Part shown: piece after piece, positions 7,786 through 12,856 of the stretch
How the letters are laid out: each line of letters starts with the position of its first letter
Position numbering within the stretch: the first letter of the stretch is position 1
Origin: Rhodanobacter sp. PCA2
Lineage (GTDB): Bacteria > Pseudomonadota > Gammaproteobacteria > Xanthomonadales > Rhodanobacteraceae
Direction: 5' to 3'
Assembly: GCF_013620825.1 (NCBI RefSeq)
Contig: NZ_NJIC01000009.1
Span: 241,866 to 305,865 of the forward strand
Length of the DNA stretch: 64,000 bases
The notes under the pieces: generated by a model
Database searches by the model: none
What the model was told of the DNA's origin: nothing
Seen by the model: only the letters and a program-made list of their open reading frames with translations
Position numbers and translations under genes: made by a program

Positions 7786-7933
7786 GGCTGGGCGAAGGTT
7801 CCGGCGGATGTCTGGCGGCGTAGGCTAAGCTTGTCGTCGAGGCGCCGCGGACATGGACGCGGTCGTGGCAGGATGGGCAGAGTACGGACAGACGGTGGTC
7901 AGTGTGCGAAGCAGGCGTTGCGGATTCAAGCAG

Positions 7934-9652
7934 ATGCGGCATTTTACGGCAGCCGCGGCGCTGATGCTCGGCCTGGCCGGCTGTGCCCAGGCGCCGCTGC
8001 GGCAACCCGCCGCCCAGCCGGCCGCCGCGCCCGTCCAGCCGATGGCGCGGATGACGGTGGCGACCCCGGACGAGGACCACGACCTGCTGGCGCAACTGCT
8101 GGCCGGCGAAATGGCGCTGGGCCGGAGCGACCTCGAGGCCGCGGCGCGGTATTACGGCAAGGCGATGGCGCTGAGCGACGATCCCGCCGTGGCCGAGCAT
8201 GCCGCGATGCTGGCGATCGCGGTGCACGACGATGCGGCCACCGGACGCGCGCTGGACCGCTGGCAGGCGCTGGGCGCCAAGCCGGCGGGAATGGCGCAGG
8301 CGCGCGCCCAGCTCGCACTGAACCGCGGCGACACCGCCGAGGCGCAGCGCCAGTTGAAGATACTCACGGACAGCCACCACAAGGACGCCTGGCGCGGCTT
8401 CGGCCAGGTGCTGCTGGGCGCACGCGACCAGGCTCAGGCCGGGCAGTTGCTGGAGGCGCTGGCCACCCCGCAGCGCCTGCCGGCCGATCCGCAGGCCTGG
8501 CTGGCGATGAGCGAACTGGGCGACAAGCTGGGCCGCCACGCCTACGCGCAGCGCATCGCGGACGCCGCGATGACGCGCTTCCGCAGCAATGCCGAGGTCT
8601 ACGCCTGGGCAGCGCAGATGAAGGCCCGTAACGGCGACGCCAAGGGCGCGCGCGAGCTGCTGCAGCAAGCCATCGCGAAGTCCCCCGACAACGTGCACCT
8701 GCGCCTGGTCTACGCCAGCATGCTCAGCACGGCCGGCGACTACGCGGCCGCCGCGAAGCTGCTGGACCACGGCCCGCAGAACGCCGACACCTACCAGTTG
8801 CGCGCCGCATTGGCCGCGCGCAGCAACGACACCAGGACGCTGGCCGGGCTGTACCGCCAGTTGCAGCAGGCGACGCCCCGCGTGCGCGCGCAGAACGCGT
8901 TCCTGCTGGGCCAGCTCGCCGAGATGCAGCATCGCGGCGCCGAGGCGCTGGCCTGGTACGGCCAGGTCGGCGACGACGACCCGCACGCGTTCGACGCCGA
9001 CCTGCGCAGCGCCGTGCTGCTGCAGGCACAGGGCAAGAGCGCCGAGGCCCACGAGCTGCTGGGGCAGTTGCAGCTGGACTACCTGGACCAGCCGACCCGG
9101 TTGCGCCAGGCCTACCAGCTCGACGCCGAGCTCTACATGCGCGAGCAGCGCTACCCGCAGGCGGTCGAGGCGTTCACCCGTGCGCTGCAGGTGGTGCCGA
9201 ACGATCCGGGCCTGCTGTACGGCCGCGGCCTGGCCTACGCCGAGGCCGACCAGACCGATCTCGCGGTGCAGGACTTCCGCAGCCTGCTCAAGCTCAAGCC
9301 GGACGACATCGACGCCAGCAACGCGCTGGGCTACACGCTGGCCGACGCGGGCCGCGACCTGCCCGAGGCGGAGCAGCTGATCGGCAAGGCGCGCGCCGCC
9401 CGGCCGAACGATCCCGCGATCGCCGACTCCTGGGGCTGGCTGCAGTACCGGCTGGGCCATCTGGACCAGGCGGTGCAGGCGCTGCGCGTCGCGTGGCAGG
9501 CGGCCAAGGACGCCGACGTGGGCGTGCACCTGGGCGAGGTGCTCTGGAAACAGGGCGACCACCAGGACGCGCAGCACGTGTTCGACGAGGTGCACAAGAT
9601 CGATCCGCACAACGCCAGCCTGCAAAGCACCTTGAAGCGGCTGCATCCATGA
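7934..9652 (+). CDS. Tetratricopeptide-repeat lipoprotein
   Basis: The ATG at 7934 is chosen over upstream in-frame codons because it begins a lipoprotein signal peptide: basic n-region, hydrophobic core and lipobox LAGC with Cys17. The 572-residue protein then consists of helical TPR-type repeats; clear units include AVEAFTRALQVVPNDPGLLYG and the following EADQTDLAVQDF, plus a C-terminal set around YRLGHLDQAVQALR. TPRs bind partner proteins. Its stop overlaps the lolB start (ATGA), and a TPR lipoprotein gene in front of lolB is standard in Xanthomonadales, so a role in the cell envelope is likely but unproven. Confidence 0.9.
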   Translation: MRHFTAAAALMLGLAGCAQAPLRQPAAQPAAAPVQPMARMTVATPDEDHDLLAQLLAGEMALGRSDLEAAARYYGKAMALSDDPAVAEHAAMLAIAVHDDAATGRALDRWQALGAKPAGMAQARAQLALNRGDTAEAQRQLKILTDSHHKDAWRGFGQVLLGARDQAQAGQLLEALATPQRLPADPQAWLAMSELGDKLGRHAYAQRIADAAMTRFRSNAEVYAWAAQMKARNGDAKGARELLQQAIAKSPDNVHLRLVYASMLSTAGDYAAAAKLLDHGPQNADTYQLRAALAARSNDTRTLAGLYRQLQQATPRVRAQNAFLLGQLAEMQHRGAEALAWYGQVGDDDPHAFDADLRSAVLLQAQGKSAEAHELLGQLQLDYLDQPTRLRQAYQLDAELYMREQRYPQAVEAFTRALQVVPNDPGLLYGRGLAYAEADQTDLAVQDFRSLLKLKPDDIDASNALGYTLADAGRDLPEAEQLIGKARAARPNDPAIADSWGWLQYRLGHLDQAVQALRVAWQAAKDADVGVHLGEVLWKQGDHQDAQHVFDEVHKIDPHNASLQSTLKRLHP

Positions 9653-10254
9653 AGCGTTCCTTTCGATTCCTCGCGGCGGCGCTGCCGCTGCTGCTCGCCG
9701 CCTGTGCGCCGCAGCTCGTGCGCATCAAGGGCGATGCCGCCCTGCTCGATGCGCAGGCCGCGCGCGAACAGGCGCTGGCGCACACCGACCACTGGACGCT
9801 GGAAGGCCGGCTCGGCGTGTCCGACGGCCGCGACGGCGGCAGCGGCGGCTTCACCTGGACCCAGGACGGGGACAGCTACCGCTTCGTGTTCCGCACGCCG
9901 ATCACCGGCCGCAGCTTCGAGCTCAGCGGCAGCCCCGGCAGCGCGCTGTTGCAGGGGCTGGACGGCGGCCCGCTGCAGGGCCCGGACGCCGAGGCGCTGA
10001 TGCGCCGCGCGCTGGGCTGGGAGGTGCCGCTGCACGACCTGCGCGCCTGGGTACTGGGCCTGCGCGCGGACAGCGGCCCGGCCGAACTGGCGTTCGGCGA
10101 CAACCGCCTGCCGTCGCTGCTGCAGCAGGACGGCTGGGCGGTGGACTACCGTGCGTGGGACACCGCCCGCCAACCGCCGCTGCCCACCACCATCTTCGCC
10201 TCGCGGCCGCCGTACAAGGTGCGGCTGTCGGTGGAGAACTGGACGATCCGCTAG
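9649..10254 (+). CDS. lolB: Outer-membrane lipoprotein receptor LolB
   Basis: 201 residues with a lipoprotein signal ending LLAAC (Cys19). [22 protein letters not shown] and [12 protein letters not shown] are LolB barrel strands, and the C-terminus [20 protein letters not shown] with [13 protein letters not shown] is the family ending. LolB accepts lipoproteins from periplasmic LolA and inserts them into the outer membrane. The gene sits between the TPR lipoprotein gene and ispE, the usual neighbourhood in gammaproteobacteria, where hemA, lolB, ispE and prs cluster. Confidence 0.93.
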
Positions 10255-10282
10255 ACTGCGCGGCCCGCCAGGGTTTCCCAGC

Positions 10283-11680
10283 ATGCGCTGCACCATCGTT
10301 CCCGCCCGCCTCGACCAGGCCGACACGCTGCGCGACATCGAGCGCGCGGCGCAGGAATTGTTCCGCGGCCATCCGGCGTGGCCCTCCTACGCCGCTGCGA
10401 CGATGGACCCGGAGGCGCTGGCAGCCGCCATCGCCGCCGGCCGCGTCTGGGTCGCGCTGGACGAGGGCGGCGACGCCGTGGGCTTCGTGGGCGTGGAGGT
10501 GGAGGACGGCGAGGCCGGCATCGCCGAGATCGACGTGCTGCCCAGCCACGGTCGGCGCGGCATCGGCGCGGCGCTGCTGGAGCACGCCTGCGCGTGGGCG
10601 GCCGAATCGGGCTATCCGTCGGTGGTGCTGGGCACGCTGTCGGACGTGCCGTGGAATGCGCCGTTCTATGCGCGCCACGGTTTCGAGGCCATCGATCCGC
10701 GGCACTACACGCGGGCCTTGGCGGAGCACCACGAGCACGACCGCGAGCGCGGCTTCCCCCTGCATCTGCGCGTATTCATGCGCCGCCGGCTGCGCGTCTC
10801 GCCGGACGGCTGGACGCGCTGGCCGGCGCCGGCCAAGCTCAACCTGTTCCTGCGCATCACCGGCCGCCGTGCGGACGGCTACCACGAATTGCAGACCGTG
10901 TTCCGCCTGCTGGACTGGGGCGACGCCCTGCGCCTGCGCGTGCGCGGGGACGGCGTGATCCGCCGCCTGGGAGACGTGCCGGGCGTGCCCGAGCCGGACG
11001 ACCTGGTGGTGCGCGCCGCGTGGCTGCTGCAGCAGTGCACCGGCAGCGCGTCCGGGGCCGAGGTCGCGCTGGAAAAGCGCATCCCCATGGGTGGCGGCCT
11101 GGGCGGCGGCAGTTCCGATGCCGCCACCGTGCTGGTGGCGCTGAACCACCTGTGGCGCTGCGGGCTGGACGAGGACGCGCTGGCCGAACTGGGCCGGCAA
11201 CTGGGCGCCGACGTGCCGGTGTTCGTGCGCGGCCGCTCGGCCTGGGCCGAGGGTGTGGGCGAGCGGCTCACCCCGCTGGCGCTGCCACGCCGGCATTACG
11301 TGGTGCTGGATCCGCGTGAGCAGGTGCCCACCGCAGCGCTGTTTCAAGCCCCTGAATTGACACGAAATGCGCCTCCGGCGACAATTTCGTCCTTTGTTTC
11401 GGGCGAATCGGCGGAAAACGCCTTCACTCCGGTGGTGCGCGAGCGCCATCCGCGGGTGGCGGCGGCGCTGGACTGGCTGGGACGCCACGGGGCGGCACGG
11501 CTTTCCGGCAGCGGCGGCTGCGTGTTCCTGGAAACGGCGACGCGGGAGCAGGCCGAGGCCGTGGCGGCGCAGTGCCCGGGCGAGTTCGGCGTCCACGTGG
11601 CGAACGGCGTCAACCGCTCGCCGCTGCTCGCGGCGCTGGAACGCCATCGTGCGGTTTCGGGCGGAACAAAAACGGGTTGA
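10283..11680 (+). CDS. ispE: GNAT N-acetyltransferase fused in frame to IspE (CDP-ME kinase)
   Basis: One uninterrupted frame of 465 codons carries two domains. Residues 1-165 are a GNAT acetyltransferase, with the acetyl-CoA loop [13 protein letters not shown] and the late helix [11 protein letters not shown]. From about residue 178 ([11 protein letters not shown]) it is a complete GHMP kinase, IspE, with [17 protein letters not shown] as ATP loop and [15 protein letters not shown] near the end. IspE phosphorylates CDP-methylerythritol in the MEP isoprenoid pathway. No stop codon separates the two. An internal ATG at 10778 could make IspE alone (300 residues), but no clear ribosome-binding site precedes it. 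The gene lies between lolB and tRNAGln, where ispE is expected. Confidence 0.85.
10778..11680 (+). other. ispE: IspE module and possible internal translation start
   Basis: This is the kinase half of the fused frame, marked separately because the ATG at 10778 is the only start codon close to the IspE domain boundary. Initiation here would give [12 protein letters not shown] followed by the canonical [11 protein letters not shown], a normal IspE of 300 residues. If the ATG is used, the GNAT part still has no stop of its own, so both a fusion and a free kinase may be made. Confidence 0.6.
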
Positions 11681-11780
11681 GGCCATGCCGCGACGCGAGC
11701 GGCGCGGCAGGTATCGCAAGTCCGGTCAGGATGGCCGGGGAGTTTCAGGCCACCGGAGCGTGGCGCAGCAAACGAGATGA

Positions 11781-11857
11781 TGGGGCGTCGCCAAGCTGGT
11801 TAAGGCACGGGATTTTGATTCCCGCATGCGCAGGTTCGAATCCTGCCGCCCCAGCCA
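11781..11857 (+). tRNA. tRNA-Gln (TTG)
   Basis: A cloverleaf fits these bases. The acceptor is TGGGGCG paired with CGCCCCA, the anticodon stem CGGGA/TCCCG carries anticodon TTG, and the T arm contains GGTTCGAATCC. The discriminator base is G and CCA is encoded. Glutamine tRNA between ispE and prs is the conserved arrangement of this lineage. Confidence 0.96.
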
Positions 11858-11896
11858 CCCAGCAAGCACAGGTTGAATTTTCCGAGGAACGCAAGC

Positions 11897-12856
11897 GTGG
11901 ACAGGTCCAGCCCGATGATGCTGTTTACCGGCAACGCGCACCCCGCGCTGGCGGAGGATGTGGCCCACCGCCTTGGCGTGCCGCTGGGCAAGGCCCTGGT
12001 CAGCACCTTCAGCGACGGCGAGGTGCAGATCGAGATCGAGGAGAACGTGCGCAACCAGGACGTGTTCGTGCTGCAGCCCACCGGCGCACCGAGCGCGAAG
12101 AACCTGGTCGAGCTGCTGGCGCTGGCCGACGCGCTGAAGCGCGCATCCGCCGCCAGCGTCACCGCGGTGATCCCGTACTTCGGCTACGCGCGGCAGGACC
12201 GCCGCCCGCGCTCGGCCCGCGTGCCGATCACCGCGAAGCTGGTGGCCAAGCTGATCAGCACCGCCGGCGTCGACCGCGTGCTCACGGTGGACCTGCATGC
12301 GGAGCAGATCCAGGGCTTCTTCGACATTCCGGTAGACAACGTCTACGCCTCGCCGGTGCTGCTGGCCGACATCTGGCGCCACTTCAGCATGGACGACATG
12401 ATCGTGGTCAGCCCGGACGTGGGTGGCGTGGTGCGCGCCCGCGCGCTGGCCAAGCGGCTGGACGACGCGGACCTGGCGATCATCGACAAGCGCCGCCCGA
12501 AGGCGAACGTGGCCACGGTGATGAACATCATCGGCGACGTCAACGGCAAGACCTGCGTGATGGTGGACGACATCGTCGACACCGCCGGCACGCTGTGTGC
12601 GGCGGCCGCGGCGCTGAAGGAACGCGGCGCCCGCAAGGTGGTGGCCTACTGCGTGCACCCGGTGCTTTCCGGCGCGGCGATGAGCAACCTGGAGAATTCC
12701 CAGCTCGACCAGCTGGTGGTCACCAACACGCTGCCGCTCAGCGCCGAGGCGCAGGCCTGCGCGAAGATCCGCCAGCTCTCGGTGGGCGAACTGCTGGCCG
12801 AAACGATACGCCGCATCGCGTTCGGCGAATCGGTGAGTTCGCTGTACGTGGATTGA
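11897..12856 (+). CDS. prs: Ribose-phosphate pyrophosphokinase (PRPP synthase)
   Basis: The enzyme makes PRPP from ribose 5-phosphate and ATP for nucleotide, His and Trp synthesis. Visible signatures are [32 protein letters not shown], the metal/ribose site [18 protein letters not shown] and the PRPP loop [16 protein letters not shown] at 11897 is chosen because GAGGAA lies eight bases upstream, giving 319 residues. An ATG at 11912 (MMLFTGN) is the alternative, and an upstream TTG is unlikely. It begins 39 bases after tRNAGln and may share its transcript. Confidence 0.95.

Follow-up and report, generated by a model that had tools for sequence, protein, structure and literature searches.

A conserved GNAT-IspE gene fusion in Rhodanobacteraceae with a promoter-like site inside its kinase codons

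Gene content and domain structure of the locus

The window, a stretch of 64,000 nucleotides from Rhodanobacter sp. PCA2, carries on its forward strand a single open frame at 10283-11680 that translates into 465 residues followed by one stop. The features at and around this frame are as follows, with the basis of each assignment in parentheses.

7853-9652 (+): gene for a TPR-repeat protein, given as its longest open reading frame, upstream of lolB (open reading frame list, Pfam)
9649-10254 (+): lolB, overlapping the TPR gene at that gene's stop and ending 28 nt before the fusion (open reading frame list, Pfam, NCBIfam)
10283-11680 (+): fused GNAT-IspE gene, 465 amino acids plus stop (open reading frame, Pfam, NCBIfam, frame kept in relatives)
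10283-10792 (+): GNAT half, residues 1-170, PA2271-like (Pfam, match to 9cr5, Foldseek)
10778-10780 (+): internal ATG, Met166, in the last GNAT strand; proposed alternative start for IspE
10793-10813 (+): linker, residues 171-177 (structure model, spacing between the motifs M-x-R and PAPAK)
10814-11677 (+): IspE half, residues 178-465, with Lys185, a Gly-rich ATP loop at 270-278 and Asp310 (TIGR00154, alignments)
11357-11385 (+): sigma-70-like promoter site, TTGACA-17-GACAAT, inside IspE codons (promoter scan, codon conservation)
11781-11857 (+): tRNA-Gln (TTG), presumably the first gene that the embedded promoter would serve
11873-12856 (+): prs, ribose-phosphate pyrophosphokinase, given as its longest open reading frame; the true start may be downstream (open reading frame list, Pfam)

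The first-pass annotation of this DNA had described 465 stop-free codons spanning an intact GNAT acetyltransferase and an intact IspE kinase, and translation, Pfam, and NCBIfam agree. Pfam models Acetyltransf_7 (residues 53-135, 54.9 bits) and Acetyltransf_1 (residues 36-134, 54.4 bits) score over their cut-offs, and the GNAT matches, all above gathering scores, together span residues 36-141. GHMP kinase N and C domains occupy residues 241-317 and 375-431, and the NCBIfam model TIGR00154 for IspE reaches 254.9 bits, against a cut-off of 138.7, over residues 178-451. AlphaFold2, given an alignment of 41 fusions, predicted a two-domain model (pLDDT 84.5, pTM 0.86) in which residues 163-169 form the last GNAT strand and IspE begins its first strand at 178, which makes the modeled join about 8 residues long, close to the "roughly ten" proposed earlier. 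Foldseek matched this model to IspE (1oj4, TM 0.80) and to PA2271 of Pseudomonas aeruginosa (9cr5, TM 0.92), both by target length.

IspE is essential in bacteria relying on the MEP pathway, and a TIGR00154 search of the window's genome returned one IspE, the fused copy. Dxr is also present (465.5 bits), and no HMG-CoA reductase was found in a genome search. Based on these three observations, the IspE half is predicted to be an active enzyme and the sole CDP-ME kinase serving isoprenoid synthesis through the MEP pathway in this cell. Its sequence traits and fold are those of E. coli IspE: Lys185 (E. coli Lys10), Asp310 (E. coli Asp141), and the 10-residue Gly-rich loop all align to 1oj4, where we take the lysine and the aspartate to be catalytic and the loop to bind ATP. 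The solved IspE chains matched are free-standing and 271-318 residues long, whereas the window IspE carries an N-terminal GNAT. The usual free-standing chain of about 290 residues, a trait that is not part of the TIGR00154 criteria, is thus replaced by one frame shared with GNAT. The gene order of E. coli, hemA opposite lolB-ispE-prs, is the same as that around the fusion, and the GNAT thus appears to have been added to an old cluster.

Both the Pfam gathering scores and the predicted fold place the N-terminal half in the GNAT superfamily. PA2271, its nearest solved relative, matches over its full length at 36% identity and has a 10-residue stretch in common with it; PA2271 is free-standing, unlike the fused domain, and our literature search found no paper naming it as an acetyltransferase. 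GNAT motif A reads Gln/Arg-x-x-Gly-x-Gly/Ala. In the fusion both glycines (Gly93 and Gly95) are present, but Gly90 occupies the first position, where Gln or Arg is usual and PA2271 has Gln. Gly93, Gly95, Asn125, and Tyr129 are invariant in aligned fusions, and Gly90 is nearly so. Assignment to RimI, the ribosomal S18 acetyltransferase, was rejected, as the half scores 35.8 bits against a cut-off of 86.4.

Free-standing relatives of the GNAT half (E up to 1e-12) occurred in an order-wide sample in 22 genomes of one family (f2) and in one of another (f5); three order-wide relatives lie in longer open frames, none of which contains IspE. All 14 opened f2 loci (L172-L180, L182-L186) have glmU, then GNAT, then, on the opposite strand, a pair of genes for a two-component sensor and a sigma-54 regulator; the arrangement at the f5 locus differs. 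GlmU scored over its cut-off in the three f2 loci tested; the regulator pair is presumably ntrY and ntrX, although the proteins pass no cut-off for these names. One of these loci (L184) has its GNAT divided over two frames. A free-standing GNAT beside lolB, ispE, or prs was seen at none of 15 loci of relatives and at neither of two in family f1 (L154, L155). The glmU neighborhood offers a lead, and only a lead, toward a link between GNAT and envelope precursors.

Distribution of the fusion and the number of products

Among 233 Rhodanobacteraceae genomes, 137 carry both halves in one frame, and these represent 17 of 26 genera. Sixty-one of the 137 loci were opened, all of them one frame; the other 76 rest on stop-free match rows spanning both halves. 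The opened set included all 13 spanning rows with an internal stop, and in each the GNAT and IspE share an open frame, with the stop at the C-terminal end of IspE. The 17 fusion genera (145 genomes) include six more genomes with GNAT but without a full IspE, and two (G006 and G181) with neither. In the other nine genera (88 genomes), IspE is unfused in all 24 genomes opened, and for the 64 further genomes the rows among the matches listed fit IspE alone or nothing, with best E-values no better than those in opened unfused genomes. A GNAT search of 31 genomes from these nine genera found a relative better than 1e-12 in two (G154 and G213), elsewhere in the genome. A class-wide sample of 369 genomes yielded no fusion outside the window's genome; in six others a relative at E up to 1e-15 was found, in unfused frames of 178-207 residues.

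A pattern scan of named genomes gave a similar picture. It kept 80 of 478 relatives, with titles of Rhodanobacter, Dyella, Luteibacter, Frateuria, Fulvimonas, or metagenome-assembled genomes (MAGs), and 79 of these 80 loci are fused; the remaining one, from Dyella nitratireducens, which NCBI places in Rhodanobacteraceae, is GNAT-only. The two sets overlap, as 38 of the 79 fused loci are identical to loci already opened. Over 102 distinct fused loci, the distance from the GNAT end motif M-x-R to PAPAK is 13 residues in 87 and 12 in 15. One Rhodanobacter genome (G203; L093 / L156) has an IspE half about 20 residues longer than the others by match length.

A stop codon lost in this genome, through sequencing or assembly error or through a recent mutation, does not survive the comparison: the same frame is open in 136 other family genomes of the 233 and in 79 of the 80 named loci (overlapping sets), nothing was found in favor of an artifact, and we give that explanation practically no weight. 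When the lolB-ispE interval was compared in relatives, as the first-pass annotation had proposed, no opened locus had GNAT here, then a stop, then an intact IspE, and a stop after GNAT was seen only in the six genomes that have lost IspE or carry it broken. Its view of a GNAT between lolB and ispE as unusual was borne out, since among the relatives opened this arrangement occurs only in this clade. The fusion is a genuine, conserved domain fusion of a clade, and it probably arose once, in the ancestor of a large part of the Rhodanobacteraceae.

A different possibility is that the gene yields two products, the full-length fusion and an IspE of about 300 residues started at the ATG at 10778, leaving the kinase partly or mainly free. 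Met166 is shared by all 41 aligned fusions, and all 102 loci have at least one ATG in the last 26 codons before PAPAK. However, Met166 sits inside the last GNAT strand of the model and is kept in GNAT-only proteins without IspE, so the GNAT domain itself accounts for its conservation. Pairing with the anti-Shine-Dalgarno sequence is absent at this ATG (+0.6 kcal/mol, versus -3.3 at the GNAT start), and just 7% of 119 ATGs in the last 26 codons reach -4. The probable starts of the family's unfused IspE genes are often weak too (median -2.2), which makes a weak internal site conceivable, and in-frame ATGs inside IspE pair better (median -3.9, n = 251); the comparison is therefore uninformative on an internal start. 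Synonymous sites showed no conservation at the junction, with just two columns scorable at residues 166-180. No signal supporting an IspE made alone from Met166 emerged from these tests, which are weak ones. We regard two products as quite unlikely, and the fusion is most likely made mainly as one polypeptide.

Xanthomonas campestris, a member of the same bacterial order as Rhodanobacter, offers a known parallel in its N-acetylglutamate synthase-kinase, the kinase of which belongs to another fold family than GHMP. In this protein, too, acetyltransferase and small-molecule kinase are parts of one polypeptide (PMC1865377). It catalyzes two steps of arginine synthesis, and the window kinase is by contrast a GHMP kinase (Pfam). 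Within the MEP pathway, the fusion that two papers describe as the common one is IspDF, likewise an MEP enzyme joined to a second catalytic domain, but one in which both partners are MEP enzymes, whereas the partner here is an acetyltransferase from outside the pathway (PMC13001223, PMC10663253). A word search of the main texts of these two papers finds neither Dyella nor Rhodanobacter. A literature search consisting largely of papers open without subscription returned no IspE-acetyltransferase domain fusion, nor did we find the GNAT-IspE fusion described in it; matches for IspE in Rhodanobacter concern plastics by title, and those for mevalonate in Rhodanobacter or Dyella concern other subjects by title and abstract opening.

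Fate of the two halves where HMG-CoA reductase is present

The IspE half is damaged or lost in some genomes with HMG-CoA reductase. Genus g8, which we call the Dyella group, comprises 16 genomes, among them those of Dyella nitratireducens, mobilis, dinghuensis, psychrodurans, and lipolytica; further species under the name Dyella belong to different genera. HMG-CoA reductase is present in every one of the 16, and Dxr scores over its cut-off in just one (G089). Diphosphomevalonate decarboxylase lies near the reductase in G090 of this group and also in G005, a metagenome-assembled genome from the same genus as the window that has the reductase and no Dxr. A search for IspE in 31 genomes left 17 without a match over the cut-off, of which 13 have HMG-CoA reductase and no Dxr. 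The remaining four (G006, G181, G216, and G220) have Dxr and no reductase, and since they are drafts, an assembly gap is likely. In two mevalonate-carrying relatives, a single frame encodes HMG-CoA reductase followed by a GHMP kinase at the C-terminal end, near diphosphomevalonate decarboxylase (L276:3487-5757 on the reverse strand, 756 amino acids, and L277:3519-5798 on the reverse strand, 759 amino acids), and in other genomes the reductase likewise lies in open frames of comparable length.

In six Dyella-group genomes the IspE half is either deleted (five) or reduced to a remnant in another frame (G094); the GNAT of all six ends a few residues past its last strand, and the order lolB-GNAT-tRNA-Gln-prs is intact. 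Nine further genomes, eight from the Dyella group plus G005, have an in-frame IspE half whose loop differs from GGGLGGGSS, slightly in two (L073 and L074) and clearly in seven; that of G005 also has the Lys replaced by Arg and the Asp by His. A single Gly-to-Ser change in G089 and Gly-to-Ala changes in several unfused IspE proteins were not scored as damage. A tree of neighboring proteins places IspE losses in at least two places within the Dyella group. The reductase by itself is not enough for IspE to decay: ten genomes of genus g23 have HMG-CoA reductase together with Dxr (as do G054 and G149); the seven g23 genomes opened all have intact IspE motifs.

Selection on the two halves diverges when IspE is damaged. 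By mean pN/pS (Nei-Gojobori pairwise counts), the GNAT and IspE halves are alike in two sets of 11 sequences with intact IspE (0.32 and 0.32; 0.26 and 0.27), while in seven Dyella-group sequences with damaged IspE the ratio is 0.40 for the IspE half versus 0.21 for GNAT. Five of the six GNAT-only genes have a mean of 0.12, the lowest seen. As IspE has been lost or has decayed while GNAT stays under purifying selection, GNAT works without IspE, and the sequence comparisons point to a selected function of its own. The same data weigh against a reading in which GNAT serves specifically to regulate or modify IspE, be it by acetylating the kinase or by sensing acetyl-CoA to adjust MEP flux. A lasting fusion with a near-constant linker speaks for such a role, but the domain survives without IspE in six genomes, at that lowest pN/pS in five, and its free-standing relatives adjoin glmU and not ispE at all 14 opened f2 loci; a regulatory role is very unlikely.

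It could also be argued that the damaged IspE half stays in frame because it serves GNAT structurally. Nine distinct damaged halves remain open over 265-281 residues in at least two lineages (the Dyella group and G005, by tree), and the product of their no-stop probabilities is about 2e-5 on an assumption of independence that does not hold, since they share branches; indels were left out of the calculation. Each sequence alone nevertheless fits chance, with a no-stop probability of 0.19-0.76 under neutral change, and the survivors are a selected set, as broken frames were counted as losses. Five genomes dropped IspE cleanly just past GNAT, and the sixth keeps only its out-of-frame remnant. In addition, Dxr, which is unfused, decays in the same manner: in five Dyella-group genomes (L267-L271) it is one open frame below the cut-off, with 49-55% identity to the window Dxr versus 74% for G089. 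In-frame decay is thus not peculiar to the fusion. Given this parallel and the chance probabilities, a frame that stays open does not in our view prove a structural role, which we judge unlikely. Other Dxr arrangements were also seen, including a gene split between two frames in G095 (L272) and two Dxr matches each in G102 and 14 of 20 g6 genomes, one of each pair scoring at least 484 bits.

A promoter-like site in the kinase codons and its implications

The 3' part of the IspE half contains a sigma-70-like site with 10 of 12 hexamer matches and a spacer of 17 nt, within the usual range of 16-18 nt. It is the only promoter-like site at 9500-12000, where shuffled sequences gave a mean of 0.0, and the match is beyond chance. 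Synonymous codon conservation, scored over 255 columns in 93 intact fusions, peaks at residues 353-375, with no peak at the junction, although scorable columns are few there. The codon of Leu359 is TTG and that of Thr360 ACA in 93 of 93 intact fusions, and Thr367 has ACA in 92 of 92, although TTG makes up 14% of Leu codons and ACA 16% of Thr codons in the same genes. A second, smaller peak at residues 406-410 (window 11498-11512) lies about 115 nt past the promoter-like site; five GNAT-only loci lack this stretch.

The full promoter pattern is kept across Rhodanobacteraceae regardless of the state of the kinase: all but one of the intact fused loci have it (92 of 93), and it is present at every damaged fused (9), unfused (24), and GNAT-only (6) locus. 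At the five ispE-deleted loci the remainder of ispE scarcely aligns, and 58-81 nt separate the end of the site from tRNA-Gln; this gap is 314 nt in G094 and 395 nt in the window. The E. coli ispE gene differs in having no such site at the equivalent place, just a weaker match elsewhere in the gene. The simplest reading is that the site serves as a promoter for tRNA-Gln and prs. If so, the regulation of a neighbor would be fixing codons of an essential enzyme. Even damaged IspE halves keep the amino acids encoded at this position (ELT...ATIS), a conservation that could be mistaken for catalytic constraint.

Taken together, we hold with considerable confidence that this is a two-domain gene inherited by a clade and made mainly as one polypeptide, which combines the sole IspE, an independent GNAT, and, in its kinase codons, a probable promoter serving tRNA-Gln and prs. 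A large clade of Rhodanobacteraceae would have inherited from its ancestor a GNAT-IspE gene whose C-terminal half supplies CDP-ME kinase and whose N-terminal half is an independent PA2271-like acetyltransferase, so that both predicted activities would share one chain and one expression unit. In the Dyella group, where HMG-CoA reductase is present, the MEP pathway decays, and the IspE half has decayed or been deleted while GNAT stays selected. The promoter in the 3' part of the IspE half would restrain codons there, and its sequence outlasts the deletion of ispE. A bolder version, which we think rather unlikely, is that a bifunctional enzyme couples an acetyl-CoA-dependent modification within the supply of envelope precursors, as the glmU neighborhood of free-standing relatives might hint, to the sole IspE, in a gene triply constrained by kinase, acetyltransferase, and a tRNA-prs promoter that outlives the kinase once MEP is replaced.

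For this clade, IspE would be a larger protein than the free-standing kinase, a point relevant to annotation, drug-target, and pathway work. The Dyella group may in turn serve as a natural experiment in pathway replacement, in which one half of a fused essential gene became free to decay while the other remained selected.
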